From the NCBI GenBank assembly GCA_947632205.1, contig CANROK010000004.1, positions 1 to 44,785 on the forward strand: a stretch of 44,785 bases of DNA. Reading direction: 5' to 3'. The notes beneath the pieces were generated by a model that made no database searches, had not been told where the DNA came from, and saw only the letters and a list, made by a program, of their open reading frames with translations. Within the stretch, counting starts at the first letter, position 1; each line of letters opens with the position of its first letter. A program made the position numbers and the translations under genes. The stretch is from an uncultured Bacilli bacterium (GTDB taxonomy: Bacteria; Bacillota_I; Bacilli_A; RF39; UBA660). This document shows positions 6,191 to 25,102 of this stretch, one piece after another.

Positions 6191-7246
6191 ATGAAATGGA
6201 TTATTAATGATTATAATATATTAGAAATTTTGTTAGTTACATTTCTAGTTAGTGCAATTTTAGTACCAATTTGTCAAAAAATTGCTCATCATATTGGAGC
6301 AATAGATATACCAAATGAAAGAAAAGTTCATACCAAGCCAATGCCAAGATTAGGTGGACTAGCCATATATATTGCATTCTTAGCTGGTTATATTTTATAT
6401 GGTGAATTAACTACCCAAATGATATCAATTTTAATTGGTTCATTTATAATTTTGCTTATTGGTATTTTTGATGATATTAAGCCAATAAGAGCTAGATATA
6501 AATTCTTAGTTCAAATAATAGCGGCTTTAATTGTTGTTATTTATGGTAGAATGTATTTTAATGAAATTACTTTTTTAGGAATACATCTTCATTTTAATAA
6601 AGTGATTAGTTATATTTTATCAACATTTTTTATTGTAGCTATATCTAATGCTATTAATTTAATTGATGGTTTAGATGGTCTTGCTGGGGGTATTAGTACA
6701 ATTTATTTTTTAACTATTAGTATTATTGCTTTTTTATTACAAAAATTAGGTGGATTAGATATAATATTATCTTTAATAATGTTAGGATCAACTTTGGGAT
6801 TCTTAGTTTGGAATTTTCCACCAGCTAAAATATTTATGGGTGATTCTGGTAGTTTATTTTTGGGCTTTATGATTGCAGTTATTGCCTTAGTTGGTTATAA
6901 AGTAGCAACATTAACTACTTTGATAATACCAATAACTATTTTATCAGTACCAATATTTGATACATTACTTGCCATTTTAAGAAGGTTAATAAAACATAAA
7001 AGTATTGGTTCACCAGATAAAGAACACTTTCATCATCAATTATTAAAATTAAAATTCTCACCAAGAATGAGTATAATTGTTATATATATAATTAATTTAT
7101 TATTTTCAGTAGTATCTATTTCTTATGTAACTCATCATACAAAAATAGCAATGGTTATTTATGTACTTTTAATGATTCTTTTATTATTTATTATTTTAAA
7201 AACCGATATTTTATATACACATAAAAAGAAGGAGAAGAAAAAATGA
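6191..7246 (+). CDS. tagO: Undecaprenyl-phosphate N-acetylglucosaminyl-1-phosphate transferase (TagO/WecA family)
   Basis: Integral membrane enzyme that moves a sugar-1-phosphate (usually GlcNAc) from its UDP form to undecaprenyl phosphate, the first step of wall teichoic acid and other wall polysaccharides. It has about ten membrane helices. Signatures are the cytoplasmic loop around IPNERKVHTKPMPRLGG (residues 40-56), IFDDIKPIRARYKF (Asp 94/95), NLIDGLDGLAGG (Asp 159/162), FMGDSGSLFLGF and the substrate-binding HFHHQLL. Length is 351 aa. galE overlaps its last 4 nt. A weak promoter (TTCTTT, 17 bp, TATAAT at 6168-6173) lies upstream. The exact sugar is not provable from sequence. Confidence 0.9.
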   Translation: MKWIINDYNILEILLVTFLVSAILVPICQKIAHHIGAIDIPNERKVHTKPMPRLGGLAIYIAFLAGYILYGELTTQMISILIGSFIILLIGIFDDIKPIRARYKFLVQIIAALIVVIYGRMYFNEITFLGIHLHFNKVISYILSTFFIVAISNAINLIDGLDGLAGGISTIYFLTISIIAFLLQKLGGLDIILSLIMLGSTLGFLVWNFPPAKIFMGDSGSLFLGFMIAVIALVGYKVATLTTLIIPITILSVPIFDTLLAILRRLIKHKSIGSPDKEHFHHQLLKLKFSPRMSIIVIYIINLLFSVVSISYVTHHTKIAMVIYVLLMILLLFIILKTDILYTHKKKEKKK

Positions 7247-8250
7247 ATATATTTGTAACAGGTTGTACTGGTTATATTGGTAGTCATACTTGTGTTGAAT
7301 TACTTAATGCAGGATATAATGTAATTGGGTTTGATAATTTTAGTAATAGTAAAAGAGAAGTACTTGATAAAATAAAACAAATAACTAACAAAGAAATTAA
7401 ATTTTATGAAGGAGATATGTTAGATGAAAATATCCTTGATAAAATAATGAATGAAAATAATATTGATGTTGTGGTTGATTTTGCAGCTTATAAAGCCGTT
7501 GGTGATAGTGTCATAAAACCAATTAGTTATTACATTAATAATGTTAGTAGTGTTCTAACTTTAATCAAAGTTATGCAAAAGCATAATGTTAAAAAATTAA
7601 TATTTAGTAGTAGTGCAACTGTCTATGGTAAGCAAGATATTATGCCTATTACTGAAGAAATGCCAATTGGTAATACGACAAATCCATATGGTACTAGTAA
7701 ATTATTTGTAGAACATATCTTAAACGATTTAAGTATTGCTGATCCTGAATTTAAAATTATAGTTTTTAGATATTTTAATCCTGTTGGAGCTCATCCATCT
7801 GGCTTAATTGGGGAAGATCCAAATGGTATACCAGCTAATTTAATGCCTTTTATAGCTAAAGTAGCTACTAAAGAATTAGAGTGTTTAAGTGTCTTTGGTG
7901 ATGATTATGATACTTTAGATGGTACTGGTGTAAGAGATTATATTCATATTGTTGATTTGGCTAAAGCTCATCTTAATGGTATTAATAAGTTAAATAGTAT
8001 GGATAAAGGTGGATTACTTGTTTATAATTTAGGTACTGGTAAAGGTTATAGTGTTTTAGAAATGATTAAAACATTTGAAAAAGTAAATAATGTTACAATT
8101 AATTATAAAATAGCCCCAAGAAGAAGTGGCGATATCGATACTTGTTATGCTGATTCAAGTAAAGCCAGTAAAGAACTAGGATGGACAGCTTCATTAAATT
8201 TAGAAGATATGTGCAAAGATGCTTATAATTTTGTTATAAATAATAAGTAA
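7243..8250 (+). CDS. galE: UDP-glucose 4-epimerase
   Basis: Interconverts UDP-glucose and UDP-galactose (possibly also the GlcNAc/GalNAc forms), supplying sugar donors for the wall polysaccharide made by nearby genes. It is an extended SDR: the Rossmann glycine motif TGCTGYIG (residues 6-13), SSSATVYG with the catalytic Ser/Thr, and the YxxxK pair Tyr149/Lys153. The C-terminal domain has RDYIHIVDLA and APRRSGDID, typical of GalE. Length is 335 aa. It overlaps the TagO-like gene by 4 nt and so is translationally coupled to it. Confidence 0.95.
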   Translation: MNIFVTGCTGYIGSHTCVELLNAGYNVIGFDNFSNSKREVLDKIKQITNKEIKFYEGDMLDENILDKIMNENNIDVVVDFAAYKAVGDSVIKPISYYINNVSSVLTLIKVMQKHNVKKLIFSSSATVYGKQDIMPITEEMPIGNTTNPYGTSKLFVEHILNDLSIADPEFKIIVFRYFNPVGAHPSGLIGEDPNGIPANLMPFIAKVATKELECLSVFGDDYDTLDGTGVRDYIHIVDLAKAHLNGINKLNSMDKGGLLVYNLGTGKGYSVLEMIKTFEKVNNVTINYKIAPRRSGDIDTCYADSSKASKELGWTASLNLEDMCKDAYNFVINNK

Positions 8251-9742: not shown

Positions 9743-11188
9743 ATGAAATTGAACAATAAGAAGGTTAAAAAAGCTAAGAGAATATTCTCTATAATAATAG
9801 GTATTCTTTTACTTGTTTCTATATATATCAATACTTATTTAATAATAAAATATAATGTATTACCAACTAAATATTTAATTGTTTATGGGATATTTATTGT
9901 CTTAGTTCCGATAATATTTATATTTTTTACAATTTTTAGAAGACCAAAAAGATTTATAAGGGGAATTCTCACTTTTTTTGAAATATTTTATATCATATTA
10001 TTATTATTAGTGTTTTTTTATTTGAATAAAACATTTAATTTTTTAGATGATTTATCAAGTAATTTTGGCTATGAAACTAAAAATTATTATGTACTTGTAT
10101 CAAGTACATCAAATTATACAAAAGTAGATGAACTTGCTAATAAAAAGTTAGGATATGCTAAAAATGTTGATTTAAGTATTGATAAAGCCATTATGGAACT
10201 TGATAGTAAAATAACTGCTAATCATGAAGAAAAGAATAGTTATAGTGATTTATTTAATTCGCTTCAAAAAGATGAAATTGATGGAGTTTTAATGATTGAT
10301 AGTATTTATAGTTTACTTACTGAAGATGATGAAGAACTAAAATCAAATACTAAAATATTATATGAATTTAGTATAAAAGAAAAAATTAATGAAATTGGTA
10401 AAGATGTTAATGTTACAGAAGAACCATTTAATGTCTATATATCTGGTATAGATTCTTATGGTAAAGTTACTGATAAAGGTCGAAGCGATGTTAATATAGT
10501 TATGAGCATTAACCCAAAAACACATAAGATTTTAATGATCAATATTCCAAGAGATTATTATGTTAATTTAAATGGTATAAATGAGATGGATAAGCTTACT
10601 CATGCCGGAATATATGGTGTTAATGTTAGTGCTAAAACCATTGAAGACATCCTTGATATAGACATAAATTATTATGTTAAAGTTAATTATAATGCTTTAA
10701 TAAAATTAGTTGATGCCCTAGATGGTGTTGATGTTTATTCAGAGTACAATTTTAAAAGTTCAGAATTCTTTTACAAATTTGAAAAAGGATATAATCATGT
10801 TAATGGTAAAATGGCTCTAGATTTTGTTAGAACAAGAAAAGCATTCCAAGATGGTGATAGAGTAAGAGGAGAAAATCAACAAAGAATGATTGAAGCAATT
10901 ATCAAAAAAGCTAATTCACCAAAAATATTAGTTAAATATTCTGATTTATTAGAGGCCTTAGAAGGCACATTTACAACAAATATAAGTACAGAAAAAATTA
11001 TGAATTTAGTTAATATGCAACTTGATAAAATGCCAGATTGGGAAATTAATTCAATAAGTTTAAATGGTAGTGATGGTAGTGAAATAACTTATAGTGTTCC
11101 AAGTATGGAGTTATATGTTATGTATCCAAATGAAGAAACTATAGAAGATGCTAAAATAAAAATTCAAGAATTAATGGGAGAAGTATAA
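9743..11188 (+). CDS. LytR-CpsA-Psr (LCP) family wall polymer ligase
   Basis: LCP proteins transfer lipid-linked teichoic acids or capsular polymers onto peptidoglycan on the outer face of the membrane. Three membrane helices occupy about residues 11-95. An accessory region follows (about 105-220). The LCP catalytic domain begins near residue 227 with FNVYISGIDSYG, then RSDVNIVMSINP and ILMINIPRDYYV (the pyrophosphate-binding Arg and Asp), and later DFVRTRKAFQDGDRVRGENQQ with the conserved arginines. Length is 481 aa. Three N-terminal helices instead of one is a common Bacilli variant. It has its own promoter and terminator at the head of the polysaccharide locus. Confidence 0.93.
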   Translation: MKLNNKKVKKAKRIFSIIIGILLLVSIYINTYLIIKYNVLPTKYLIVYGIFIVLVPIIFIFFTIFRRPKRFIRGILTFFEIFYIILLLLVFFYLNKTFNFLDDLSSNFGYETKNYYVLVSSTSNYTKVDELANKKLGYAKNVDLSIDKAIMELDSKITANHEEKNSYSDLFNSLQKDEIDGVLMIDSIYSLLTEDDEELKSNTKILYEFSIKEKINEIGKDVNVTEEPFNVYISGIDSYGKVTDKGRSDVNIVMSINPKTHKILMINIPRDYYVNLNGINEMDKLTHAGIYGVNVSAKTIEDILDIDINYYVKVNYNALIKLVDALDGVDVYSEYNFKSSEFFYKFEKGYNHVNGKMALDFVRTRKAFQDGDRVRGENQQRMIEAIIKKANSPKILVKYSDLLEALEGTFTTNISTEKIMNLVNMQLDKMPDWEINSISLNGSDGSEITYSVPSMELYVMYPNEETIEDAKIKIQELMGEV

Positions 11189-11294: not shown

Positions 11295-12974
11295 ATGAAT
11301 AATGTATTAAAAAATAAACTTGCTAAAAATATTATAAAAATGTTGTTAGTTTTTTCCGGAACAATATTAACATTAGTAATAACTTTAGGTGAGTACAAAA
11401 ATATGGCAAAAATAGGTATATTTAACGCATTAGTTTGTTTTTGTTTTATGATATATCTTATCTTTTATAAAAATATTTTAGAATTAATTAAAAAGAAAGA
11501 ATATTTTATGAGTAAATATTTTGATAATTTACTTTGTCTTATTTTTACATTTAATACATCTAAAGTTATAATAAATAATTTTAGATTTAATCCTTCTTTT
11601 TTAACAAATATCATAAATTTATTTATAGATTTTTTAAATATTAATAATGGTATTTTTTATATTTTTATTGTCTTATTATTTATTGCAATTTTGCCTATAA
11701 TTTACTTAATATGGCTATCTTTTATAAAATATTTGCTGCCAATAGCTAGAAGTTTTGTTAAATCTTTTTCTAAAGTAGAAAAAAAGTTTTTTATTTTTTC
11801 AGTTATAATATTTTTTTCTCTTTGTTGTATAATTAACTTTAAAACTAATGTTTTTACAAGACCCATTTATAAAGATTCACCCGATATTATATATTATGAC
11901 GCTTTATATCGTTCTGACTCTGGAGCTTTGATAGCACAAGATTGTTTCCAAAAAATTAATTCACCAGAAAATGATTTAAGACAACCATTATTTGGTTTAT
12001 TTGCTTTTCCATTTGGTCAAATTGCCGATATAGTTGCTCATATTTTTGATTTTACTTCTTATGATGTAATTTATGCTTTTAGCATTTCTATATTGCAAGG
12101 AATTTGTTTAATAATAATTTCGATTTTATTTGAAAGATTATTAAGTTCTAAAAATTCATTATTAGCATTGTTAAGCTATAGTTGTTTATTTTCAACAATA
12201 TTTTTTGCATTTAATATAGAACAATATGTTTTTGGATTATTCTGGTTAATTATTTTTATTTATAATATTGTAAAGAATAAAAAAACGAATAATATATTAT
12301 TTTCAGCTATTTCTGGAACTTTAATTACCAATTCGATTTGTTTACCTTTTGCACTTTTTAACAAGGACTTAAAAAAATTTATTAAAGATTGTTTTAAATA
12401 TGGTATTTTATTTCTAATTCTTATAGTTATATTTGGCCAAACTCATATAGTTTTAGAGAATCTAATTAACTTTGATAGATATGGTACAGATACTTCGTTT
12501 ACTTTTAATAGAGTATTGCAATTTTTAACTTTTGTAAGTGGTTGTTTTCTTTATCCAAATAGTATAACTAATTTTAATACAGAGAATATTCCATATCATT
12601 ATTCTTATGATGTTAATGTATTAAATAAAATTAATTATATTGGCTTTGGAATAATTATATTATTATTAATTTCTTTTATAATAAATAGAAAGAAAAAAAT
12701 TGCTCAAATAAGTTTTGGATGGTTTTTATTTTCTATACTAATATTAGTAATAATTGGCTGGGGAACTAATGAAAACTGTTTATTTTTATATTCACTATAT
12801 TTTGGTTGGGCATATTTTATTTTACTATATTTACTAGGCCAAAATTTTGTAAACAAATTACCTAAAATGAAATATTTTTTCATAATATTAATTTTACTAA
12901 TGATTATAATAAATGTATATGGAATGTATAATATTGTTGGTTTTGGTATCAAATATTATCCATTTAAGTTGTAG
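11295..12974 (+). CDS. Polytopic membrane protein, possible GT-C-fold glycosyltransferase
   Basis: A 559-aa protein with about 12 membrane helices. After four N-terminal helices it has a long extracellular loop (about residues 185-240) with SPDIIYYDALYRSDSGALIAQD and LRQPLFGLFAFPFG, followed by more helices. An acidic loop between early helices followed by a membrane core is the general plan of GT-C enzymes that use polyprenyl-phosphate sugars, but I recognise no specific family. It sits 8 nt upstream of a UbiA-type prenyltransferase that could make such a donor, so the two may work together. Both stand behind the duplicated promoter. The function is inferred from layout only. Confidence 0.6.
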   Translation: MNNVLKNKLAKNIIKMLLVFSGTILTLVITLGEYKNMAKIGIFNALVCFCFMIYLIFYKNILELIKKKEYFMSKYFDNLLCLIFTFNTSKVIINNFRFNPSFLTNIINLFIDFLNINNGIFYIFIVLLFIAILPIIYLIWLSFIKYLLPIARSFVKSFSKVEKKFFIFSVIIFFSLCCIINFKTNVFTRPIYKDSPDIIYYDALYRSDSGALIAQDCFQKINSPENDLRQPLFGLFAFPFGQIADIVAHIFDFTSYDVIYAFSISILQGICLIIISILFERLLSSKNSLLALLSYSCLFSTIFFAFNIEQYVFGLFWLIIFIYNIVKNKKTNNILFSAISGTLITNSICLPFALFNKDLKKFIKDCFKYGILFLILIVIFGQTHIVLENLINFDRYGTDTSFTFNRVLQFLTFVSGCFLYPNSITNFNTENIPYHYSYDVNVLNKINYIGFGIIILLLISFIINRKKKIAQISFGWFLFSILILVIIGWGTNENCLFLYSLYFGWAYFILLYLLGQNFVNKLPKMKYFFIILILLMIIINVYGMYNIVGFGIKYYPFKL

Positions 12975-12982
12975 GAGAATTT

Positions 12983-13837
12983 ATGAAATATTTAAAACTA
13001 ATGCGAGTTAAACATTATATAAAAAATTTTTTGATTTTTTTACCATTAATTTTCAGTAAAAATTTATTTTCATCAAATTTATTATTAAAAACTATTTTTG
13101 CTTTTTTATCGTTTAGTTTTATTTCATCTGTTGTTTATATAATTAATGATATTAAAGATAAAGAAAAAGATAAGTTACACGAAAAAAAGAAAAATAGACC
13201 AATTGCATCAGGACAAGTAAGTATAAAGGAAGCACTGGTATTATCTTTTATCTTATTTATCTTATCGTTATTATTTAATTTTTTAGCTATATACAAAATT
13301 ATTAATATGAATTTATTTTATTTATTATTGTATTTGATAATTAATATAATGTATAGCTTTGGACTTAAAGATGTTCCTTTTTTAGATATAGCTATTTTAG
13401 TATCAGGATTTTTAATTAGAATTTTATATGGTGCTTCAATAATAGACGTTCAAGTATCTTCTTGGTTATATTTAACAATTATGTCTGGAGCTTTTTACCT
13501 AGGATTAGGTAAGAGAAGAAATGAAATTCAAAAAAATGGTCAAAATTCAAGAAAAGTTTTAAATTATTACAATGAAAACTTTCTAGATAAAAATATGTAT
13601 ATGTGTTTAACAATGGCTATTATATTTTATTCTTTGTGGGTTGTAGGTGAAAGTGATAGTGCAAATAATTTATTGCTTTGGACTATTCCTTTAGTTATAT
13701 TAATTTTTATGAAATATAATATGGACATTGAAAGTGATAGTTTTGGCGATCCTGTTGAAGTTGTTTATGGAGATAAAACTATATTAACTCTAATTTCACT
13801 ATATGCTATATTGATCATGATTATAATATATGTTTAA
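12983..13837 (+). CDS. UbiA-family prenyltransferase, similar to decaprenyl-phosphate phosphoribosyltransferase
   Basis: Membrane prenyltransferase with about eight helices. The first Asp-rich motif is INDIKDKEKD (Asn55, Asp56, Asp59) followed by KKKNRPIASG. The second region is DVPFLDIAILVSGFLIRILYGA. The N-terminus (LKLMRVKHYIKNFLIFLPLIFS) and the KKNRPIASG stretch resemble the branch that attaches phosphoribose from PRPP to polyprenyl phosphate, rather than quinone or heme enzymes. Such a product would be a lipid-linked pentofuranose donor for a wall polymer. It follows the GT-C-like gene by 8 nt with SD GTAGGAG. Assignment to the subfamily is moderately sure; the substrate is inference. 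Confidence 0.75.
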   Translation: MKYLKLMRVKHYIKNFLIFLPLIFSKNLFSSNLLLKTIFAFLSFSFISSVVYIINDIKDKEKDKLHEKKKNRPIASGQVSIKEALVLSFILFILSLLFNFLAIYKIINMNLFYLLLYLIINIMYSFGLKDVPFLDIAILVSGFLIRILYGASIIDVQVSSWLYLTIMSGAFYLGLGKRRNEIQKNGQNSRKVLNYYNENFLDKNMYMCLTMAIIFYSLWVVGESDSANNLLLWTIPLVILIFMKYNMDIESDSFGDPVEVVYGDKTILTLISLYAILIMIIIYV

Positions 13838-13915
13838 TTTTTTTTCTGTAGAATTAATTGTATTTTGTAAGTTTGGTTTACTATATGATAACAATTATAA
13901 ATTATTAGACATAAG

Positions 13916-13944
13916 AAAATATGTGTGTTAAAATTAATAAGAAT
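13916..13944 (+). promoter_or_regulatory. Promoter, copy B of the 34-bp duplicated box
   Basis: TAGACA (13916-13921), a 17-bp spacer and TAAAAT (13939-13944), 20 nt before the acyltransferase ATG. Confidence 0.65.
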
Positions 13945-13964
13945 TTTATAAAAAGTGAGGATGT

Positions 13965-15026
13965 ATGAAAGAAAGAAATTATGAAATAGATTTTTGGAAA
14001 TTTATATTTAGTATAGTTATTGTAATTTATCATGCATGGTCTTTGAATAAATTTGGTGAAAGAGTGCTATTTCCATATGGATGCTATATTGTAGATTTTT
14101 TCTTTATAGTATCTAGTTATTTAATGATGGTAAAAATTAATACCAATGAAAATAATGAAGATTTAGGAAGTAGTACTTGGAAATTTATTATTGCCAAATT
14201 AAAGCCAATATTTATATATATAATTTTATCTTTTTTTGTTGGCTGTTTATTTGAATATATATTTTTAAAAAGACCTCTCGTAAGTTTTATGACTAATATT
14301 TTTGAATTATTGCAAATGCAAATGAATGGTGTACTTACTTCAGGACAGATATATGCTAATGTAAATAGAGCTGAATGGTATATTTCTTCAATGTTATTTG
14401 TCTTTTTAATTATATATCCACTAGCTTGTAAATATAAAAAAACTTATAGTAAAATAATTGCTCCAATATTTGTCTTTTTAACTTGTAGTTTTATTATTTA
14501 TAATAATATTGGTATTTATGCACCTTTTGAATTACAATATTTATTTATTAATGGCACTATCAGAGCATTTTTAAGTATGAATATTGGAGTCATTGCATAC
14601 GAAATAGTTGAAATATTAAAAAAGTTTTCTTTTAAAAAATTATCTAAATTAATTTTTACTATAGTTGAAATTGGAATTGTGTATGTTTTATTTCATTTTA
14701 TGGAGTATGGTATAGGTGAACAATCAATATTTTTAATTCAATTTTTAACAGCAATTTTAGTAATAATTATTTTTTCTAAAATTAGCTTTATTAATCATTT
14801 GTTTAAACATTCTATTTGGCAAAAATTAAGTAAATTTGGATTCATAATGTATTTAAATCATATGTATATTAGAAACGTTTTAGCCATTTATAATTTTTCT
14901 TATAATAAAAATTTAATTATTTTAATTTCGACAAGTTTAATTATTTCAATAATTACTTCTTTATTAGCAATTTTTATACAAAAAATTATTCAATCTTCTA
15001 AATTTAAAAAGCTATTTTTAAATTGA
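13965..15026 (+). CDS. Acyltransferase family 3 (membrane O-acyltransferase)
   Basis: Integral membrane enzyme of the Acyl_transf_3 family, which adds acetyl or other acyl groups to extracytoplasmic sugars. The N-terminal signature is RNYEIDFWKFIFSIVIVIYHAW with the conserved His near residue 23, followed by CYIVDFFFIVSSYLMM and about ten helices. The C-terminal region has FGFIMYLNHMYIRNVL. Length is 353 aa, full for the family. It has its own copy of the duplicated promoter and the SD GTGAGG. It probably modifies the polymer made by this locus. A decayed relative lies at 25.1-25.7 kb. Confidence 0.88.
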   Translation: MKERNYEIDFWKFIFSIVIVIYHAWSLNKFGERVLFPYGCYIVDFFFIVSSYLMMVKINTNENNEDLGSSTWKFIIAKLKPIFIYIILSFFVGCLFEYIFLKRPLVSFMTNIFELLQMQMNGVLTSGQIYANVNRAEWYISSMLFVFLIIYPLACKYKKTYSKIIAPIFVFLTCSFIIYNNIGIYAPFELQYLFINGTIRAFLSMNIGVIAYEIVEILKKFSFKKLSKLIFTIVEIGIVYVLFHFMEYGIGEQSIFLIQFLTAILVIIIFSKISFINHLFKHSIWQKLSKFGFIMYLNHMYIRNVLAIYNFSYNKNLIILISTSLIISIITSLLAIFIQKIIQSSKFKKLFLN

Positions 15027-15035
15027 AAAAATTTG

Positions 15036-15065
15036 TTGGAAAAAGTTAGTAATCTATGTTATACT
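15036..15065 (+). promoter_or_regulatory. Promoter before the small membrane protein
   Basis: TTGGAA (15036-15041), an 18-bp spacer and TATACT (15060-15065), with AGAAGGAG and ATG just after. Confidence 0.5.
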
Positions 15066-15086
15066 TTCAAGTAAGAAGGAGTAATT

Positions 15087-15389
15087 ATGAATTTTATTTG
15101 TTTATTTTTTCCAGCATTGATTTTAAATTATATTCTAGATTCAAAAGAAAAATTTAATTTTTTGAACTCTATAATTCATTATGGAATATATAATATTTTA
15201 GTAAATTCAATTATGTTATTTATCATTAATTATATAAAGGAAAATAGTTATTTAATTTTAAATAGTGATGCATTTACGGTAAGCTTTAGTTTAAAATATA
15301 TGTTACTTGCAAGTATTGTGGCATTATTTCTTGGGTTATTTATAAAATATATTAGAAAGAATTTTAATGTAACAATTAAAAAGAAATGA
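15087..15389 (+). CDS. Small membrane protein of the polysaccharide locus
   Basis: A 100-aa protein with three hydrophobic segments (about residues 2-16, 28-50 and 68-88) and a basic C-terminal tail (RKNFNVTIKKK). I do not recognise a family. It has a strong SD (AGAAGGAG), its own promoter and lies 7 nt before the LTA-synthase-like gene, so the two are co-expressed. A role as a partner of that enzyme is only suggested by position. Confidence 0.7.
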   Translation: MNFICLFFPALILNYILDSKEKFNFLNSIIHYGIYNILVNSIMLFIINYIKENSYLILNSDAFTVSFSLKYMLLASIVALFLGLFIKYIRKNFNVTIKKK

Positions 15390-15396
15390 GTAAAAA

Positions 15397-16929
15397 ATGA
15401 AAAAAGTAGTAAGTATTTTAAGTAAATTGTTTGTTTTTTTCTTAATGTTCATTTCTCTTTTAATTATTTTTTCTATAAAATGGGCATTAAATAATTTTGA
15501 CAATTTAAGTATAGATGAGATTATTTTTCATATTTTGGGACCTCTTGAAGGAACTGAAAGTGGTAAAATAATTGGTTTTATAAAATATAGTTTGTTTCCA
15601 AGTTTTGTTATAGCAATTGCCTTTTGGATTATTTTATATTTTCTTTTAAAAATGTTAAAGAATAAAAAATATATTGTAAATGTTAGATTATGGAAAAAGA
15701 AATTTAACTTTTTGTTATCAGGTAATATAATAAATATTTTTATTAAATGTATAACGCCATTATTTCTATTAATTGGTATCTATATAAGTTTAAATACTGT
15801 ACATTTTTGGGAATATTTAAAAGAGCAAAATACTAATTCACTTTTTATTGAAGAAAATTATGTTGATCCAAGAGAAGTAAAATTAACATTTCCAAAGGAA
15901 AAAAGAAATTTAATTTATTTGTTTGTTGAATCTTTAGAAAGTTCTTATTTTTCTACTAAATTAGGTGGTACAATGAAAAATAATTTATTGAAAGAATTAA
16001 CGAATTTAACTAAAGATAATATTAGTTTTTCAAATACAGAAAAATTTGGTGGAGCAAGATCATTAGTTGGTACTACATGGACTAGTGCAGCAATGGTTGC
16101 TCAAACTACTGGACTTCCTACAAAATTAGCTGCAGAACTTACAAATGATTATAGTTTTAATACTTATTTACCTGGTGCCTATTCAATTGGAAATATATTA
16201 GAAAATGCAGGATATAATCAAATGTTAATGCTTGGCTCAAATGCTATCTTTGGTAATCGTCGTATTTTTTTTGAAACACATGGCAATTATCAGATTTATG
16301 ATTTAGGAGTTGCAATCAATAATGGTAAGCTTCCGGAAGGATATTATGTTTGGTGGGGCTTTGAAGATTCTAAATTATTTGAATATGCTAAAGAAGAAAT
16401 CATAAAATTAGCTAGTGAAGATAAACCATTTAATTTTACGTTTTTAACTGCAAATACCCATGCAAATGAGGGATATCTAGAAGAAATTTGTGAAACACCT
16501 TATGAAAACCAATATGATAATGTTATATCTTGTACTAGTAAACAAATTATGGAATTTGTTGATTGGTTTAAAAAGCAAAATTTTTATGAAAATACAACTT
16601 TAGTTATTGTTGGTGATCATTTAAGTATGAATCCTGATTATTTTAAAGATGAAAATTATGAAAGAACAGTATATAATTTATTTATAAATTCAGCAGTTAA
16701 TACAAATGATATATATAATAGACAATTTTCAACTTTAGATTTATTTCCTACGACGCTTGCTTCTTTAGGAGTAGAAATTGAAGGAAATAAATTAGCATTA
16801 GGTACAAATTTATTTAGTGGGGAAGATACTTTAATTGAAAAATATGGATATGAAAAAGTAAATGAAGAATTTAAATTAAAAAGTACTTTTTATAATAATA
16901 AATTTATCTATAATCTAAAGAGTGATTAA
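15397..16929 (+). CDS. LTA synthase-like phosphoglycerol transferase (sulfatase fold)
   Basis: Membrane-anchored enzyme of the alkaline phosphatase/sulfatase superfamily, the group of LtaS and MdoB-type phosphoglycerol transferases that act outside the membrane. Three N-terminal helices (about residues 6-30, 65-90 and 112-134) are followed by the catalytic domain from NLIYLFVESLESSYF (metal-binding Glu). The likely catalytic Thr is in GTTWTSAAMVAQTTGLP (near residue 229). VGDHLSM carries the C-terminal metal-binding Asp-His, and FTFLTANTHANEG a further metal-site His. Length is 510 aa. LtaS itself has five helices, so this is a paralogue that may decorate the polysaccharide with phosphoglycerol. 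A terminator follows. Confidence 0.85.
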   Translation: MKKVVSILSKLFVFFLMFISLLIIFSIKWALNNFDNLSIDEIIFHILGPLEGTESGKIIGFIKYSLFPSFVIAIAFWIILYFLLKMLKNKKYIVNVRLWKKKFNFLLSGNIINIFIKCITPLFLLIGIYISLNTVHFWEYLKEQNTNSLFIEENYVDPREVKLTFPKEKRNLIYLFVESLESSYFSTKLGGTMKNNLLKELTNLTKDNISFSNTEKFGGARSLVGTTWTSAAMVAQTTGLPTKLAAELTNDYSFNTYLPGAYSIGNILENAGYNQMLMLGSNAIFGNRRIFFETHGNYQIYDLGVAINNGKLPEGYYVWWGFEDSKLFEYAKEEIIKLASEDKPFNFTFLTANTHANEGYLEEICETPYENQYDNVISCTSKQIMEFVDWFKKQNFYENTTLVIVGDHLSMNPDYFKDENYERTVYNLFINSAVNTNDIYNRQFSTLDLFPTTLASLGVEIEGNKLALGTNLFSGEDTLIEKYGYEKVNEEFKLKSTFYNNKFIYNLKSD

Positions 16930-16999: not shown

Positions 17000-18112
17000 A
17001 TGAAAAGAATTTTATTTGCAGCTAATCTTGAATCATTCTTTATAAAATTTTTAATTCCAGAATTAAAATGGTTTAAGGAAAATGGTTATGAAGTACATAT
17101 TGCTGCTAAAAGTGAAGATATAGATATACCTTATTGTGATAGAAAATACGATGTAGATTTTGCTCGGGATTTAAATATAAAACAAAATATACGATCTTAT
17201 AAGCAATTAAAAGAAATATTTAAAAAGGAACATTATGATATTATCAGTTGTCATACACCATTTGGGGGAGCAATAACTAGATATGCAGCTAAGAAAAGTC
17301 ATTTAAAAGATACAAAAATTGTTTATATGGCTCATGGGTTTCATTTTTATAAAGGAGCACCTCTTTTTAATTGGTTAGTGTTTTACAATGTTGAAAAATA
17401 TTTAGCAAAATATACGGATAATTTAATAACTATTAACTTAGATGATTATGAAATCGCTAAAAAAAAATTTAAAACAAATGTCTATTATGTTAAGGGAGTT
17501 GGATTACCTGAAGAAAAATTTGCTTTTGAAATGACTAAGCAAGATAAAATAAATTTAAGAAAAAGTTTAAATATTAAGGAAAAAGATTTTGTTATGATTT
17601 ATCCAGCTGAATTAAATAAAAATAAAAGGCAAATATGGTTGATTGAAGCAGTACAAGATTTATTAAAGCAAAATAAAAATATGCATATATTACTTCCTGG
17701 AACAGATTCAATGAATGGTGCATGTCAAAAATTAGTAGAAACAAAAGGATTAACTGATCAAATTCATTTTTTAGGATTTAGAGAAGATGTTCCAAAGTTA
17801 TTAAACATATCCAATTTATTATTAACAACATCTAAAAGAGAAGGACTTCCAGTAAATGTTATGGAGGCAATTTATGTAGGTCTTCCTGTAGTTGCAACTT
17901 CCTGTCGTGGAAATCGCGACTTAATAAAAAATAATAAAAATGGTTATATAGTTGATATTGATGATAAAGAAAAGTTTGTAAAAAAAATATTGAAAGTATA
18001 TAAGATGGATAAAAAAGAAATAGAAAAGATAAAACAAGAAGACAAAAATATTATTCAAGATTATTTACTTTCTAATGTTTTAAAAGAAATAATCGATATA
18101 CATTTAAAATAG
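17000..18112 (+). CDS. Glycosyltransferase family 4 (EpsD/CapM-like)
   Basis: Cytoplasmic retaining glycosyltransferase with the GT-B fold. The N-terminal domain starts with RILFAANLESFF and contains IISCHTPFGGAITR and VYMAHGFHFYKGAP. The C-terminal domain carries MIYPAELNKNKRQIWLIEA and TSKREGLPVNVMEAIYVGLPVVAT, the nucleotide-sugar binding E-x7-E region near residue 281. Length is 370 aa. It is the first gene of a run (17.0-25.1 kb) of closely spaced or overlapping genes ending with the flippase, so it likely adds a sugar to the lipid-linked repeat unit. The donor cannot be read. Confidence 0.9.
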   Translation: MKRILFAANLESFFIKFLIPELKWFKENGYEVHIAAKSEDIDIPYCDRKYDVDFARDLNIKQNIRSYKQLKEIFKKEHYDIISCHTPFGGAITRYAAKKSHLKDTKIVYMAHGFHFYKGAPLFNWLVFYNVEKYLAKYTDNLITINLDDYEIAKKKFKTNVYYVKGVGLPEEKFAFEMTKQDKINLRKSLNIKEKDFVMIYPAELNKNKRQIWLIEAVQDLLKQNKNMHILLPGTDSMNGACQKLVETKGLTDQIHFLGFREDVPKLLNISNLLLTTSKREGLPVNVMEAIYVGLPVVATSCRGNRDLIKNNKNGYIVDIDDKEKFVKKILKVYKMDKKEIEKIKQEDKNIIQDYLLSNVLKEIIDIHLK

Positions 18113-18123
18113 AGGTGATAAAA

Positions 18124-20070
18124 TTGCAAAAAAAGGAACCTAGAGTATCTGTAATTATGGCATTATATAATGTAGAAGAATACTTAGAAAAGAGTGTTAA
18201 TAGTATTTTAAATCAAACATATAAAAATATTGAAATAATTATGTGTGACGATTGTTCAAAAGATGGTACTTTAAAATTAGCTAAAAAATTGGCTAAACAA
18301 GATTCTAGAATTAAAGTTTTAGAAAATAAAGAAAATTTAAAATCAGGTAAAACAAGAAATAGATGTATTGAAGAAGCTACAGGTAAATATATAGCTATTC
18401 AAGATGCAGATGATTATTCAGATTTAACAAGAATTGAAAAACAAGTTAAATTTTTAGAAGAAAATAAAGAATATGATTTTGTTAGTAGTGGTATATATCG
18501 TTTTGATGAAAATGGCATATGGGGAGAATATCATTCTTGGAGTGAAAAACCTATAAATAAAGATTTTTTATGGGGACTTCCTTTTGTCCATCCAGCAACA
18601 ATGTTTACCAAAAAATGTTTGGATAAAGTAAACAACTATCGTGTGGCAAAAGAAACAACTAGGACAGAAGATTTTGATTTGTTTTTAAGATTATATATAG
18701 AGGGCTTTAGAGGATATAATTTAGAAGAGTGTTTGTGTTTTTATAATGAAAATATTGATGCATATATGCGTCGTAAATATCGTTATCGTATTGATGAAGC
18801 AAAAATGCGTTTTAAAGCATATAAGAATTTAGGATTAATGCCAAAAGGTATAATATTTGCAATGAAACCTTTAATAGTAGGTTTAATACCTAGAAAATTA
18901 CAATATAAATTAAAAAAGAATAAAAGTAATTTTAATAATGATCCAATAAGAGTATTAGAAGTGATAACTGCTCCAATATTAGGAGGAGTTGAAACTATGT
19001 TAATGAATATTTATCGTAATATTGATCATAGTAAAATACAATTTGATTTTACTAATCATATTAATAAAAAAGGAGATTATGAAGATGAAATTATTTCTTT
19101 AGGCGGAAAGATACATTATATAAAACCAATAAGAGAAATTGGTGTATTAAGATATATTTTACAAATAAAAAAATTAGTAAAACAAAATAATTATAAAATT
19201 GTTCATTCACATATAACAATAAGTAATTGTTTTATTTTGTTAGGCGCATTATTAGGTGGTGCGAAAGTAAGAATATCTCATTCCCATAATACAGCAATAG
19301 ATAAACCTGATACTTTAAAGTATAGATTAGTAACTAAATTTTCTAGAATAATTAATAAATTAGTAGCTAATAAATATTGTGCATGTGGAACGAAAGCCGG
19401 AGAATTTTTGTTTGGGAAAAGACTAATGCAAAAAGGAAAAGTAACAGTAATTAATAATGCTATTGAAATTGATAAATTTAAAAAATATTATGATAAACGG
19501 GACGAAATGATAAAAAAATATGATTTCCCTCATAATAAAATTATTGTTGGCCATATTGGAAGATTTACTGGGCCAATTAAAAATCAAAAATATATATTAA
19601 AAATTGCTTTAAAAATGAAAGAAATGAAAATATTAAATAATTATTATTTTGTTTTAATTGGAGATGGAGAAGATTTTGAAAAATATAAAAAATTTATAAA
19701 TGAAAACAAATTAGATAAAAACATTTTATTATTTGGAACTACTCAAAATATTCCTGAGCTAATGTCAACATTTGATTATTTTATTTTACCATCTTTAAAT
19801 GAAGGGTTACCTGTTGTAGTGGTAGAAAGTCAAGCAATGGGATTAAAAACAATTGTATCTGATAATATAACTAAAGAGATAGATTTAGATTTAGATTTAG
19901 TTGAATTCTTAAGTATTGATGAAAATAATATTGAGAAATGGATAAAAAAATTAAGTAAAAATCAAAAAAAGAAAATAAAATATGATATAATTGAAAAGAC
20001 ATTGGAAGAAAATGGATATAGTGTTAAATCAAGTGTTAATACTTTATATAAATTATATAAAATAGATTGA
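18124..20070 (+). CDS. Two-domain glycosyltransferase: GT2 fused to GT4
   Basis: Residues 1-235 form a GT-A family 2 domain: VSVIMALYNVEEYLEKSV, IIMCDDCSKDGT, and the DxD-type QDADD. Residues ~275 to the end form a GT-B family 4 domain: VLEVITAPILGGVETMLMN, KIVHSHITISNC, VGHIGRFTGPIKNQKYIL and PSLNEGLPVVVVESQAMGL. Two transferases in one chain suggest consecutive sugar additions. An in-frame GTG at 18115 is the longest start, but it lies inside the SD AGAGGTGAT, so TTG 18124 is the better choice (648 aa). It follows the upstream GT4 by 11 nt. Both active sites look intact. Confidence 0.88.
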   Translation: MQKKEPRVSVIMALYNVEEYLEKSVNSILNQTYKNIEIIMCDDCSKDGTLKLAKKLAKQDSRIKVLENKENLKSGKTRNRCIEEATGKYIAIQDADDYSDLTRIEKQVKFLEENKEYDFVSSGIYRFDENGIWGEYHSWSEKPINKDFLWGLPFVHPATMFTKKCLDKVNNYRVAKETTRTEDFDLFLRLYIEGFRGYNLEECLCFYNENIDAYMRRKYRYRIDEAKMRFKAYKNLGLMPKGIIFAMKPLIVGLIPRKLQYKLKKNKSNFNNDPIRVLEVITAPILGGVETMLMNIYRNIDHSKIQFDFTNHINKKGDYEDEIISLGGKIHYIKPIREIGVLRYILQIKKLVKQNNYKIVHSHITISNCFILLGALLGGAKVRISHSHNTAIDKPDTLKYRLVTKFSRIINKLVANKYCACGTKAGEFLFGKRLMQKGKVTVINNAIEIDKFKKYYDKRDEMIKKYDFPHNKIIVGHIGRFTGPIKNQKYILKIALKMKEMKILNNYYFVLIGDGEDFEKYKKFINENKLDKNILLFGTTQNIPELMSTFDYFILPSLNEGLPVVVVESQAMGLKTIVSDNITKEIDLDLDLVEFLSIDENNIEKWIKKLSKNQKKKIKYDIIEKTLEENGYSVKSSVNTLYKLYKID

Positions 20071-20078
20071 GGTAAAAT

Positions 20079-23000
20079 ATGAATAAAATACAAATATTAT
20101 TGAATAAATTGTTAGATATAAAAATTTATAAAATATGTTTTCTTTTAGGTTGTTTTCTTTATACATTTCCAATAACATCTATAATAATGAGTAAACTATT
20201 TAAAATGTTTTTTGTTTGGGCATTTTTAATCGTATTATATGATATATTAAGAAATAAAAAATTAGGATTGCCAAAAGAGGGATATTTATTAATAGTAATG
20301 TTAGCTATTTCTTTCTTTGGGTGTTTTTGGAATTTTAAAAATAATTTGGTTTCTAATATTATAGTAATATGTTATTTATTTATCCAAATAATTTGTATGT
20401 TATTGTATGATAAAAATAATGATATTAAAGAAATTATAAAAGATATAAGTATTGTATCAAAAATTATTGTAATAATAACTTTTGTTTGTGCTGTATTATC
20501 TTTGTTTATATATGTATTTAATATTAAATTATCAATTTATAATGGTTATCAAGAAGTTTTAATTGGAGTATTTGAAGGAAGACTTTGGAGTATTTATGGT
20601 AATCCAAATACTTTAGGAAATTTTTCTCTTTTATCTATTTGGTTTAGTTTTATATTATTAATTATCCCAAAATATTTAAAAACTTGTAGAACTAAAAAAT
20701 CAAAAATAGTAATTTATATTAATATTTTAATACAATATTTATGTGTATTACTTTCTAATTCAAGATCAACAATTTTAGCTGGTTTAATTAGTGCTACAAT
20801 TTTAATTGTTTTTCTATTAACAGGAAAATTTAAAGAACAAAATGATACACCTGTAAAATGCATGAAAAAAAATTCAATAAAAATTGGATTTATCACATTA
20901 GTATGCATTTTAAGTATTATTTTTGGATCTATAATAGTTAGATATAGTATTCCATTTGTAACAGTATCTATAAAAACAGTTACAAATAGTTATATTAATA
21001 CAGGTAATAATAGTTTAACTTCATCTCAAAATAATAATTTATTACAAGAAGAAATTAATAAAGTAAACAGGAAAGACAATAGCAAAGATTTTTCTAATGG
21101 TCGTTTTGAGATATGGCAAGGAGCATTAAGAGTTTGGAAGAATCATCCTATATTTGGAGTAGGATTTAAAAATGTTAATTCAAATATTAATAAATATTTA
21201 TCTGAAGAAACAGTAAAAAACTATCCTAATCTTTCAGAAGATACTCATAATATTTATTTAGAAGTTTTAGTTTCTCATGGCTTAATTGCATTTTTATTAT
21301 TTTTCATCTATTTTATTATTATTATGTTTAAATACCTGGCATTTTTATTAAAATATAAGCAAAATAATATTTATAAATATGAGTTGATTTTATATCATTT
21401 TATTATTTTGACTTCGTTATTAATTATTAATTTATTTGATTCTAATATTTTATATTTCTTTTCAATATTTATAGTCCCTATTTTTTGGATCTCAATTTGT
21501 AATATTGAGAGATTAATTAATATAGTTGGAGAAAATAATAATAAAAAGAATGTATTATTTTTGATTGATAGTTTAGCTGGTGGTGGCGCTGAAAAAGTAT
21601 TAATTGACTTAACAAATAATCTTGATTATAGTAAATATAATATTGAAGTAAAAACAATTTATAATGAAGGAGTATACATAAAACAATTAAATAAAAATAT
21701 TAAATATACTTCGTTTATAAAAAAGCCAAATATTTGGAAAAAAAGGATTGTTAATCGATTAATAAAATATTTACCTAGCAGAGTAATGTATGATTTAATA
21801 ATAATTAAAAGATATGATGTAGAAATAGCATTTTTAGAAACGTTATCTACTAAAGTTATGACTGGTAGCAATAGTAATGCAAATAAAATTGCATGGGTAC
21901 ATACAGATATATTTTATAAACAAAATAATACATTGTTATTTTCTAATAAGAAAAACTTGATAAAAGGATATTTAAAATTTAATAAAGTAGTATTTGTTTC
22001 TAAATATGCCATGGAAAAATTTAGTAAAGAAACTAATATCTATCAAAATGTTCTTACTATTTATAATCCTATTGATAAAAGGAAAATTTTAACCAAATCA
22101 AAAGAAAAATGCGAAATAAAAAAGGATAAAAAAAAGTTTACAATAATTACCATAGGAAGATTAACACCCCAAAAGGGTTATATGTTATTGTGTGAAGTCA
22201 TTAATAAACTTGTTAAAGAGTATAAAAATGTTGAATTATGGATTTTAGGTGAAGGTGAAGAAAGAAAAAAATTAGAGGAATATATTGATAATAATAATTT
22301 ACAACAATATATTAAATTATTTGGCTTTCAAGAAAATCCATATAAGTATTTAGTACAATCTGATTTATTTGTTTCTAGTTCTTATGTTGAAGGATTCAGT
22401 TTAGTTTTGGCTGAAGCAGTAACTTTGGAAATTCCTGTTCTTTCTACGAATACTACTGGTCCAAATAATATTTTAGATCATGGAAAGTATGGAAAAATAG
22501 TAGAATATGATTTTGATGATTTATATAAAGGATTAAAAGAAATTGTTTCTAATCCAAAAGAATTAAAAGAATTAAAAGAAAAAGTTAAATTAAGAAAAGA
22601 TTTTTTAGATTTAGATAGTAAAATAAATGAAGTTGAAAATATTATTGATAATAATGTAAATATAGAAGAAAAAAACTTATTTTGTACAGTTTTTACTCCA
22701 GCATACAATAGAGCTCATTTAATTCCAAGATTATATGAAGCATTAAAAAGGCAAACTAATAAAAATTTTGAATGGGTAGTAGTTGATGATGGAAGTGTTG
22801 ATGGAACTGATAAATTGTTTAAAAAATATTTAAAAGATAAAAATGATTTTAAGATTACTTATTTTAAACAAGAAAATGGTGGCAAACATCGTGCCATTAA
22901 TAAAGGATTGGATTTAGCAAAAGGTAAATTATTTTTTATTGTTGATTCCGATGATTATCTTTTGGATTTTGCTATTGAAAAGTTATATAATTATGAACAA

Positions 23001-23558
23001 AGCATAAAAGATTTAAAATGTTTTGCAGGAGTTTCTGGATTAAGAGGTTATAGTCATGATAAAGCTATAGGAAGTTTTATTAATAAAGATTATATTGATG
23101 CTTATAATAATGAAAGAAAATATTATAATTTACTTGGTGATAAAGCCGAAGCATATTATACCGATATTTTGAAAAATTATAAATTTCCAGAAATAGAAAA
23201 TGAAAGATTTGTTTCTGAGAGTGTTGTTTGGAACAAGATTGCTGCCGACGGATATAAAATAAGATGGTTTAATGAAGTTATATATATTTGTGATTATTTA
23301 GATGATGGTTTAACTAAGCAAGGATTAAAATTATATCAAAATAATATAAATGGATATTTATTATTTATACGTAATTTAAAAAATTATGAACATCCTAATT
23401 TAAAGACTCTTTTAGCAAATTATTATGGCTATTATGATGCAGTTAAAGATAAACTAAGTTTAAAAGAAATAGCAGATAATTTATTAATAAGTACTTTAAC
23501 TTTGAAATTTACAATTATGATAAAAAAGATTAGAGATAAATTTAAGAGGAATGAGTAA
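20079..23558 (+). CDS. Triple fusion: O-antigen ligase/polymerase-like domain + GT4 + GT2
   Basis: A single 1159-aa frame. Residues 1-480 are a Wzy/WaaL-like membrane protein with about 11 helices, including IYGNPNTLGNFSLLSIW, LLSNSRSTILAGLI and the periplasmic-loop signature GRFEIWQGALRVWKNHPIFGVGF followed by DTHNIYLEVLVSHG. Residues ~488-850 are a GT4 (NVLFLIDSLAGGGAEKVLID, TIGRLTPQKGY, SSSYVEGFSLVLAEAV). Residues ~866-1159 are a GT2 (CTVFTPAYNRAHLIPRL, VVDDGSVDGTD, FIVDSDDYLLD). Nothing suggests a frameshift or lost stop: codon use and spacing are uniform. The flippase starts at its stop codon (1-nt overlap). It couples cytoplasmic sugar addition to extracytoplasmic polymerisation or ligation in one polypeptide, which is unusual. 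Confidence 0.85.
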   Translation: MNKIQILLNKLLDIKIYKICFLLGCFLYTFPITSIIMSKLFKMFFVWAFLIVLYDILRNKKLGLPKEGYLLIVMLAISFFGCFWNFKNNLVSNIIVICYLFIQIICMLLYDKNNDIKEIIKDISIVSKIIVIITFVCAVLSLFIYVFNIKLSIYNGYQEVLIGVFEGRLWSIYGNPNTLGNFSLLSIWFSFILLIIPKYLKTCRTKKSKIVIYINILIQYLCVLLSNSRSTILAGLISATILIVFLLTGKFKEQNDTPVKCMKKNSIKIGFITLVCILSIIFGSIIVRYSIPFVTVSIKTVTNSYINTGNNSLTSSQNNNLLQEEINKVNRKDNSKDFSNGRFEIWQGALRVWKNHPIFGVGFKNVNSNINKYLSEETVKNYPNLSEDTHNIYLEVLVSHGLIAFLLFFIYFIIIMFKYLAFLLKYKQNNIYKYELILYHFIILTSLLIINLFDSNILYFFSIFIVPIFWISICNIERLINIVGENNNKKNVLFLIDSLAGGGAEKVLIDLTNNLDYSKYNIEVKTIYNEGVYIKQLNKNIKYTSFIKKPNIWKKRIVNRLIKYLPSRVMYDLIIIKRYDVEIAFLETLSTKVMTGSNSNANKIAWVHTDIFYKQNNTLLFSNKKNLIKGYLKFNKVVFVSKYAMEKFSKETNIYQNVLTIYNPIDKRKILTKSKEKCEIKKDKKKFTIITIGRLTPQKGYMLLCEVINKLVKEYKNVELWILGEGEERKKLEEYIDNNNLQQYIKLFGFQENPYKYLVQSDLFVSSSYVEGFSLVLAEAVTLEIPVLSTNTTGPNNILDHGKYGKIVEYDFDDLYKGLKEIVSNPKELKELKEKVKLRKDFLDLDSKINEVENIIDNNVNIEEKNLFCTVFTPAYNRAHLIPRLYEALKRQTNKNFEWVVVDDGSVDGTDKLFKKYLKDKNDFKITYFKQENGGKHRAINKGLDLAKGKLFFIVDSDDYLLDFAIEKLYNYEQSIKDLKCFAGVSGLRGYSHDKAIGSFINKDYIDAYNNERKYYNLLGDKAEAYYTDILKNYKFPEIENERFVSESVVWNKIAADGYKIRWFNEVIYICDYLDDGLTKQGLKLYQNNINGYLLFIRNLKNYEHPNLKTLLANYYGYYDAVKDKLSLKEIADNLLISTLTLKFTIMIKKIRDKFKRNE

Positions 23559-25102
23559 TGAGAAGAGAAAGAGCTATAAAAAATGTTATAACAGCTTTAA
23601 TTAGTAATATTATTGTTTTATTATTTGGTTTCATCACTCAAAAAATATTTATTATTACTTTGGGTGATGAATACCTAGGTTTAAATTCTTTACTTACAAA
23701 TGTTGTATCAATGCTTGCTATTGTGGAACTTGGTGTTGGTTCAGCGATAATTTATAATTTATATGAACCAATTGCTAAAAAAGATAATAAAACAATTATT
23801 TCTTTATTAACATTTTATAAAAAGACTTATAATTTAGTTGCCTTAGTAATATTTATATTAGGTTTACTATTATTACCATTTTTAAAATATTTTGTTACTA
23901 CAACACTTGATGTAAATATTTACCTTATTTTCATGTTATTTGTGACAGATGTTATATGCTCATATTTGCTTTCATATAAAAGATCTATATTACAAGCTGA
24001 TCAAAAAAGTTATATCATAAATATTGTCCATATATTATATGTAGTAGTATTAAATACATCTTTAATAGGAATATTATTTTTAACTAAAAATTACATTTTA
24101 TATTTAATAATTAAATGTTTATGTCGTTTCTTAGAAAACTTTATCATTGCGGTAGTAGCTAATAAAAAATATCCTTATATTAAAGATAAAGCTAATAAAC
24201 TTGATAAAGAAATATACAAATCAATTATGCAAAAAGTTAAAGGTCTATTTTTTCATAAAATTGGTTCGTTTGTAGTTTTAGGAACAGATAATATTATTAT
24301 TTCTAAATTTTTAGGAAATGTAACTGTTGCTTTTTATTCAAATTATTATTTAATAATTAATGCAGCTAGTACATTACTTTCTCAAATATTTGTTGCTCTT
24401 ACTGCTAGTATAGGTAATTTATTGGTTGAAAAAAATGAAGAAAAATCATATTCTTTATTTAAATATATTATGTTTTTTGATTTTTGGATTTATAGTTTTT
24501 CTGCGATAGGTATCTTTATATGTATGAATTCATTCATATCAATGTGGGTTGGAGCTGAAAGATTACTTCCTATATCTGTATTACTAGTGCTTGTAATAAA
24601 TTATTATATGATGGGAATGCGTTCATCAATAGGTATATATAAAGATGCAGCAGGAATATTTTATGAAGATCGTTTTATTCCAATAATTGAATCAGTTGTT
24701 AATATAATTGCGTCAATTATTTTAGTAAAATATTTTGGCTTACTTGGAGTATTTTTAGGAACTATGTTAAGTTCTTTTGTAGTCGTTTTCTTTGGTCTTC
24801 CATATTTTGTTTATAAAAAAGTATTTAAGAAAAGTATGCTAGATTACTATAGATTATATTTTAAATATGTAATACTCACATTTATTACAGGTGGGTTAAC
24901 ATATTTAATATTTAAGTTAATAATAAAATATTTAGCAATTAGTAATTATTTATTGATATTTATAATAGGATTTATTTTATCTTGCATAATTTCAAATCTT
25001 ATTTATTTAATATTGTTTAATAAAAAGGAAGAATTTAGATATTTCTTTGATATCTTTAAAAACATTTTAAAAAAGATATTTGTAAAAAAGGAGAAAAATT
25101 AA
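23558..25102 (+). CDS. Polysaccharide flippase (Wzx-like, MOP superfamily)
   Basis: Moves the lipid-linked repeat unit across the membrane. The 514-aa protein has about 12-14 helices. The N-terminus (RAIKNVITALISNIIVLLFGFITQKIFIITLGDEYLGLNSL, residues 5-45) is typical of Polysacc_synt / MATE-like exporters, with VELGVGSAIIYNLYEPIA in helix 2-3 and SFVVLGTDNIIISKFLG in the middle. The start overlaps the stop of the polymerase fusion by one base (TAATG), so the two are translationally coupled. It closes the glycosyltransferase run; the next gene is a broken acyltransferase. Confidence 0.92.
   Translation: MRRERAIKNVITALISNIIVLLFGFITQKIFIITLGDEYLGLNSLLTNVVSMLAIVELGVGSAIIYNLYEPIAKKDNKTIISLLTFYKKTYNLVALVIFILGLLLLPFLKYFVTTTLDVNIYLIFMLFVTDVICSYLLSYKRSILQADQKSYIINIVHILYVVVLNTSLIGILFLTKNYILYLIIKCLCRFLENFIIAVVANKKYPYIKDKANKLDKEIYKSIMQKVKGLFFHKIGSFVVLGTDNIIISKFLGNVTVAFYSNYYLIINAASTLLSQIFVALTASIGNLLVEKNEEKSYSLFKYIMFFDFWIYSFSAIGIFICMNSFISMWVGAERLLPISVLLVLVINYYMMGMRSSIGIYKDAAGIFYEDRFIPIIESVVNIIASIILVKYFGLLGVFLGTMLSSFVVVFFGLPYFVYKKVFKKSMLDYYRLYFKYVILTFITGGLTYLIFKLIIKYLAISNYLLIFIIGFILSCIISNLIYLILFNKKEEFRYFFDIFKNILKKIFVKKEKN

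Follow-up and report, generated by a model that had tools for sequence, protein, structure and literature searches.

Can the assembly of a polysaccharide repeat unit in the cytosol and its polymerisation outside the cell be carried by a single protein? The question is raised by a gene at 20079..23558 (forward strand, as are all features below) of a 44,785-nt stretch, here called the window, from an uncultured Bacilli bacterium (GTDB lineage Bacillota_I, Bacilli_A, RF39, UBA660; GCA_947632205.1, contig CANROK010000004.1, positions 1 to 44,785). It is a complete open reading frame (ORF) including its stop codon, starts with ATG and encodes 1159 amino acids (aa). As an earlier note on this DNA had proposed, a polymerase-type membrane domain (Wzy), a family 4 glycosyltransferase (GT4) and a family 2 glycosyltransferase (GT2) were found in one unbroken frame, with Pfam matches in that order: Wzy_C (76.2 bits, cut-off 31.7; aa 217–409), Glycos_transf_1 (110 bits; aa 675–837) and Glycos_transf_2 (92.5 bits; aa 870–972). 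By profiles and motifs, the two glycosyltransferases (GTs) are complete and of different folds, GT-B for GT4 and GT-A for GT2. The active-site motifs of all three domains are intact, and the gene is coupled to the following flippase gene by a 1-nt overlap (TAATG, 23556..23560). On balance, we favour the reading that this protein is an assembly-line enzyme of a Wzx/Wzy pathway for a wall or capsular polysaccharide in a Gram-positive-type gut bacterium of the Bacilli. It would tether the building of the repeat unit to its polymerisation and carry an exchangeable donor cassette.

The triple fusion is genuine and under purifying selection in four species. Full-length copies were found in 4 of the 38 genomes of the genus (G000, which is the window, G017, G002 and G028); the three others are 75–79% identical to the window protein and lie in the same locus, and the G028 copy lacks its first 48 aa because the contig begins there. 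The TAATG overlap was retained in all three (L135, L136 and L137). The ratio of nonsynonymous to synonymous substitution rates (dN/dS) was 0.08–0.26 in all four segments for pairs sharing a type of GT4 donor half, and 0.49–0.54 in that half between the two types. No triple fusion was found among 82 relatives examined outside the genus; the accompanying scan of genome contigs for short peptide patterns reaches close relatives only. The earlier note had called the arrangement uncommon, which holds for the triple but not for the principle, since two-part fusions of Wzy with a GT recur in the family and the class.

The membrane domain comprises aa 1–485 (20079..21533) with 12 predicted transmembrane segments. 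Hydropathy gave 12 hydrophobic segments before aa 475, basic loops on the cytosolic side and a 109-aa outside loop (288–396), and the N-terminus and everything past aa 475 were predicted to be cytosolic from hydropathy and loop charge. An extra 19-aa hydrophobic stretch (770–788) lies inside the GT4 fold and was not counted as a membrane segment. The active-site loop of the polymerase domain is thus predicted to lie outside, and the GT4 and GT2 domains are predicted to be cytosolic and attached to its cytosolic end. From this topology, it is plausible that the fusion links cytosolic building with outside polymerisation, as the earlier note had supposed.

Modelled alone, the membrane domain reached a predicted local distance difference test score (pLDDT) of 73.5 and a predicted template modelling score (pTM) of 0.77. 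The only Foldseek match under 0.001 was the WaaL ligase (7tpg_B, E 1.2e-6), and VIA-align gave the same structure at Z 21.6 (5.2 Å, 368 residues aligned), followed by FtsW and RodA at Z 10–14 (FtsW best of these, Z 13.7). The Wzy_C match (20727..21305) contains R342, G360xG362, H390-N391 and G401. In an alignment of 33 Wzy domains, R342, G360, G362 and G401 were invariant and H390 and N391 were at least 90% conserved. The domain is a member of the Wzy_C/O-antigen ligase-polymerase superfamily by profile, by its WaaL-like fold and by its Arg and His-Asn residues. GN1 and GN2 are described, in excerpts of PMC12502699, as motifs of type-B (mostly beta-linking) Wzy, and most of these enzymes carry one or both of them. 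The window protein shares with the type-B pneumococcal enzymes of those excerpts the GN1 motif RX(11-24)GXG, present as R342-X17-G360-V-G362, and the HNX9G part of GN2 at 390–401.

The GT4 domain (aa 486–862, 21534..22664) has the family profile, the two-Rossmann fold and the EX7E motif, with E771 and E779 as its glutamates. In VIA-align it matched HepE, BshA and WlaC at Z 35–36; the table for the full model shows GT4 rows alone, and nothing was inferred from missing GT2 or WaaL rows. The best NCBIfam match was PglJ, at 101 bits against a cut-off of 500. The GT2 domain (aa 863–1159, 22665..23555) has the profile, DDG at 903–905 and a DXD motif, DSD, at 956–958. Its closest relatives, at 48–55% identity, come from S. 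oralis, a Clostridium, a Lachnospiraceae genome and two genomes of the class. A mixed alignment (A4, 113 rows) placed GT4-only rows on the GT2 part and was replaced by one of 34 rows (A6), in which both GT4 glutamates align in all 22 Wzy-GT4 rows. Even there, about 50–70 residues of the C-terminal tails of the GT4 rows fall in the GT2 region, which leaves the GT4 model less certain at its end. The linkers between domains are short (about 10–15 residues), variable and of low model confidence. In the full-length AlphaFold model (pLDDT 73.3, pTM 0.49), linker pLDDT was below 50, and the GT4 donor half and GT2 exceeded 90 in most blocks.

Within GT4, the two halves differ in their relationships. 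Compared with L005 and L006, the window protein was 92–93% identical in the N-terminal half of GT4, 52% in the C-terminal half and 88–90% in GT2; compared with L004, the values were 76%, 86% and 83–93%, respectively. A maximum chi-squared analysis delimited a segment of aa 666–871 with L005 as the third genome and 666–889 with L006. The values of 123 and 166, respectively, compare with null maxima of 18.2 and 18.6 (200 permutations), and third codon positions alone gave 46 and 61 against a null of 22. The synonymous substitution rate (dS) between the window and L006 was 0.26 in the N-terminal half, 0.79 in the C-terminal half and 0.37 in GT2, a pattern that altered selection at the protein level would not produce by itself. 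The donor-binding half of GT4 (aa ~666–868, 22074..22682; two allele types in the four genomes) appears to be a recombining cassette swapped between related species, around which the acceptor half, the GT2 domain and the polymerase were retained. In GT-B enzymes, the N-terminal half sets the acceptor and donor binding falls to the C-terminal half (PMC10937113, excerpts), so the exchange should alter one sugar of the polymer. Separately, the GT2-GT4 fusion protein encoded directly upstream (18115..20070, 651 aa) is also a mosaic: its GT2 part is 91–94% identical, its GT4 halves are 56–71% identical between the window and two relatives, and these halves are 84–88% identical between the two non-window relatives.

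The gene lies in a locus that combines an initiating transferase and GTs with Wzx and Wzy, the set of a Wzx/Wzy-dependent pathway. A WecA/TagO-type initiating transferase (PF00953, 6191..7246) is followed by a GalE-like nucleoside diphosphate-sugar epimerase/dehydratase (7243..8250), a LytR-CpsA-Psr (LCP) glycopolymer ligase (9743..11188), a 370-aa GT4 (17000..18112), the upstream GT2-GT4 fusion, the triple fusion and a Wzx-type flippase (Polysacc_synt, 44.7 bits; 23558..25102), which is 90–93% identical in L135–L137. Five GT domains are thus encoded by three genes, one by the 370-aa GT4 gene and two by each of the fusion genes. The initiating transferase, GalE and an AAA protein are 98% identical between the window and G002 (L136), LCP and a DUF3048 protein 94% and Wzx 92%; the two GT fusion genes are only 75% identical. 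Pfam named no Wzz/Wzd co-polymerase or Wze kinase among the 20 scanned proteins of the window, which was the part of the genome searched for them. When plasmids were searched for relatives of the locus, only a galE match turned up.

Fusions of Wzy with other enzymes were found beyond the genus. A PF04932 search of 291 genomes of the family gave at least 150 matches (hand count); among those listed, 21 lie in frames of at least 675 aa, and the 20 besides the window's were all scanned. Thirteen are Wzy-GT4 proteins, and L103 has the same order with a GT4 match just under the cut-off. Single cases were GT4-Wzy (L088), Wzy-GT2 (L102, a call that rests on a 20-bit Wzy_C match), Wzy-glycerophosphotransferase (L087), acyltransferase-Wzy (L099), initiating-transferase-Wzy (L104) and a frame whose C-terminal part has no identified family (L091). 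Several Wzy_C matches in these fusions are below the family cut-off, and many of those match O-antigen_lig (PF13425) strongly. Profile searches (A3) over 295 and 296 genomes, which scored three candidates per genome and therefore undercount, added the Wzy-GT4 proteins L128–L133 in the family (L128, L132 and L133 checked with Pfam). The same searches brought up L123, L124 and L125, which are Wzy-GT4 proteins from two further families of the class. When 295 genomes of the phylum were searched with PF04932, the matches listed included 20 frames of at least 666 aa besides the window's (hand count), 12 of which were examined; L140 and L141 are Wzy-GT4 proteins of a fourth family. Among the ten newly examined frames, three have a named partner above the cut-off (L140, L141 and L144), L143 has a sub-threshold GT and six have none; L143 and these six were not counted as fusions to known enzymes. 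In L144 (944–3013), Wzy_C is fused to a TupA-like ATP-grasp domain.

The L104 frame (984–2978, 664 aa) joins Bac_transf, the initiating phosphoglycosyl transferase family, to Wzy_C and so makes covalent the contact that the WaaL-WbaP model, discussed below, puts forward; WbaP belongs to the Bac_transf family. Four further frames (L126:4946-7636, L127:2044-4629, L138:396-3335 and L139:551-3469) carry Wzy with about 400–600 C-terminal residues that have no Pfam match. For the C-terminal 400–450 aa of L126, L127 and L091, no family was identified (the PDB search covered L126 and L091).

The nearest relatives of the Wzy domain of the window protein are Wzy proteins without a fusion partner (27% identity across some 110 aa), not the other fusions, so its fusion appears to have arisen separately. 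Of 24 fusion loci inspected, six (L094, L095, L096, L100, L128 and L130) have a stand-alone GT2 gene behind the Wzy-GT4 gene, with gaps of −1, −1, −1, 0, +5 and −35 bases; loss of the stop codon between two such genes would produce the order of the triple and may be how it arose. These loci are analogous rather than orthologous, as their GT2 parts are far from that of the window.

If the assembly-line reading is right, the initiating transferase and the five GT domains of the locus would build an undecaprenyl-linked repeat unit, with the GT4 and GT2 of the fusion protein adding later sugars beside the membrane. The neighbouring Wzx would flip the unit, the Wzy domain of the same protein would polymerise the flipped units and LCP would attach the chain to the wall. 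Tethering would keep these enzymes in one place at a fixed ratio with less build-up of lipid-linked intermediates, and exchange of the GT4 donor half between species would vary one sugar of the product. The recurrence of Wzy fusions with several partners supports the idea that the tethering matters. Several observations weigh against this reading. Structure prediction, suggested earlier for domain contacts, succeeded for single domains only: the full-length model gives no reliable inter-domain placing, and hence no channel or docking is visible. GN2 (HNX9GX(2-4)G) is partial, as the second G is absent in the window protein and also in L004 and L005, which, like the fusion to GTs, sets the window protein apart from the type-B pneumococcal enzymes. 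L004 is divergent in the N-terminal half of GT4 too, which goes against a simple single swap, and more than one exchange may have occurred. A source of the second cassette was not found among the ORFs of the loci examined, where the nearest is about 37% identical over the whole cassette. Moreover, GT4, an EpsG-type polymerase and GT2 are encoded by separate genes in clostridia (L036 and L040; in L038 the middle gene of that order is hydrophobic and without a Pfam match), so fusion is not required. The earlier note had held that separate-gene relatives together with an assembly error would overturn the fusion; such relatives exist, and the assembly error is excluded by the same frame on independent contigs of three other assemblies, at the above 75–79% identity and with every part of the protein showing a dN/dS far under 1. 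All four assemblies are fragmented and incomplete, which would suit an assembly or frameshift artefact; given those contigs, we assign it a negligible probability. Cleavage of the chain, or translation in pieces that work as separate enzymes, would find possible protease sites in the linkers, and is very improbable with an unbroken frame conserved in four species.

A more serious rival, although we consider it unlikely, is operon compaction without functional meaning, in which the stop codon between abutting or overlapping genes disappeared and the joined enzymes still act independently on one chain. The genes of the locus are packed (gaps of 2, 8 and −1 bases), five of the six Wzy-GT4/GT2 gene pairs lie at gaps of −1 to +5, separate-gene relatives exist, and GT-GT fusions without Wzy also occur (18115–20070, L042 and L114). 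Compaction fits less well with the joining of Wzy to six partner families (GT4, GT2, glycerophosphotransferase, acyltransferase, initiating transferase and TupA-type ATP-grasp) at both of its ends and with the retention of the triple in four species under purifying selection. The membrane domain might instead be a ligase or an O-oligosaccharyltransferase with a protein or another lipid as the acceptor of the glycan, because polymerases, ligases and O-linking transferases all fall under Wzy_C and the WaaL fold; TfpM and PEP_O_lig_1 also gave weak matches, far below their cut-offs. We regard this as improbable, since the domain adjoins Wzx, an LCP ligase is present in the locus and no second Wzy_C match in the genome exceeds the cut-off (one 19-bit partial match lies in a 199-aa frame). 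If the domain were not a polymerase, the locus would have none (the genome was searched for Wzy_C, not for the unrelated EpsG-like type). On the same context, the 'polymerase/ligase' of the earlier note was narrowed to polymerase. Beyond the assembly-line reading, a broader proposal is possible but doubtful: the polymerase may be the physical hub of a repeat-unit factory in this lineage, fused several times independently to the six kinds of partner, with building, flipping and polymerising in one membrane-spanning complex and the GT4 donor half as a plug-in sugar switch.

Each part of the protein resembles known enzymes. It shares with WaaL O-antigen ligase and Wzy (PF04932) the membrane fold and the Arg/His motif loop and would be expected to share the chemistry on undecaprenyl diphosphate-linked glycans, but differs in having two cytosolic GTs on the same chain, in adjoining Wzx and in having LCP in its locus. 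The GT4 part has the full GT-B fold of PglH/PglJ-, HepE- and BshA-type enzymes (Z ~35), whereas it is no ortholog by the curated cut-off, lies on a polymerase chain and has its donor half in two types. Similarly, the catalytic part of GT2 matches GalT1-type and chondroitin-synthase enzymes (5hea and 2z87) in sequence, including DDG and DSD, but sits behind a polymerase and GT4. The Actinobacillus capsule multienzyme Cps3D (8qoy) also carries several capsule enzymes on one chain with a similar GT4 part; its record, in contrast, names a TagF-like capsule polymerase, and the match covers only the GT4-like part.

Contact of a Wzy/WaaL-family protein with repeat-unit synthesis is also the core of the WaaL-WbaP feedback model of Hong and Reeves, which, in the available extracts, is a hypothesis on separate Gram-negative proteins (PMC4863624), whereas the contact in the window protein is covalent. 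According to these extracts, only Wzy and Wzz were confirmed to interact as of 2015; extracts of other papers report just one positive two-hybrid pair of a terminal transferase with a polymerase (PMC7589315) and a Wzy-Wzz complex (PMC10030265). From the first two of these sources, contact between repeat-unit synthesis and polymerisation has been proposed and is weakly supported. We found no description of a natural Wzy-glycosyltransferase fusion in the openly licensed PMC literature, including the excerpted parts of PMC4594306, PMC12419801 and PMC7310880. What appears new here is the swap of the GT4 donor-half cassette. It is an unsettled question whether Wzx/Wzy pathways operate as a single complex that spans the membrane, and natural fusions of Wzy with repeat-unit enzymes let coupling be tested directly by splitting one gene. 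In addition, the donor-half swap indicates how exchange of about 200 residues may change a surface sugar, a natural experiment for glycan engineering.

An AAA_14/DUF4143 ATPase (8317–9645), the AAA protein compared above (98% in L136), lies between GalE and LCP in the conserved part. The products of the block at 11295–16929 include a 559-aa protein of no recognised family, a UbiA protein similar to decaprenyl-phosphate phosphoribosyltransferase (212 bits against a cut-off of 234), an acyltransferase and a sulfatase-fold protein that resembles glycerophosphotransferases. The UbiA and 559-aa proteins have relatives in L135, but in L136 the GT4 gene directly follows LCP. This block may add a pentose-type side branch. 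Outside the locus, a PD-(D/E)XK transposase-family protein (5128–6033) lies between spoIIGA (sporulation) and the polysaccharide genes, and a 250-aa protein (336–1088) that matches the ALK/LTK glycine-rich domain at 114.8 bits (against a cut-off of 24.5) is encoded just upstream of ftsA and ftsZ.

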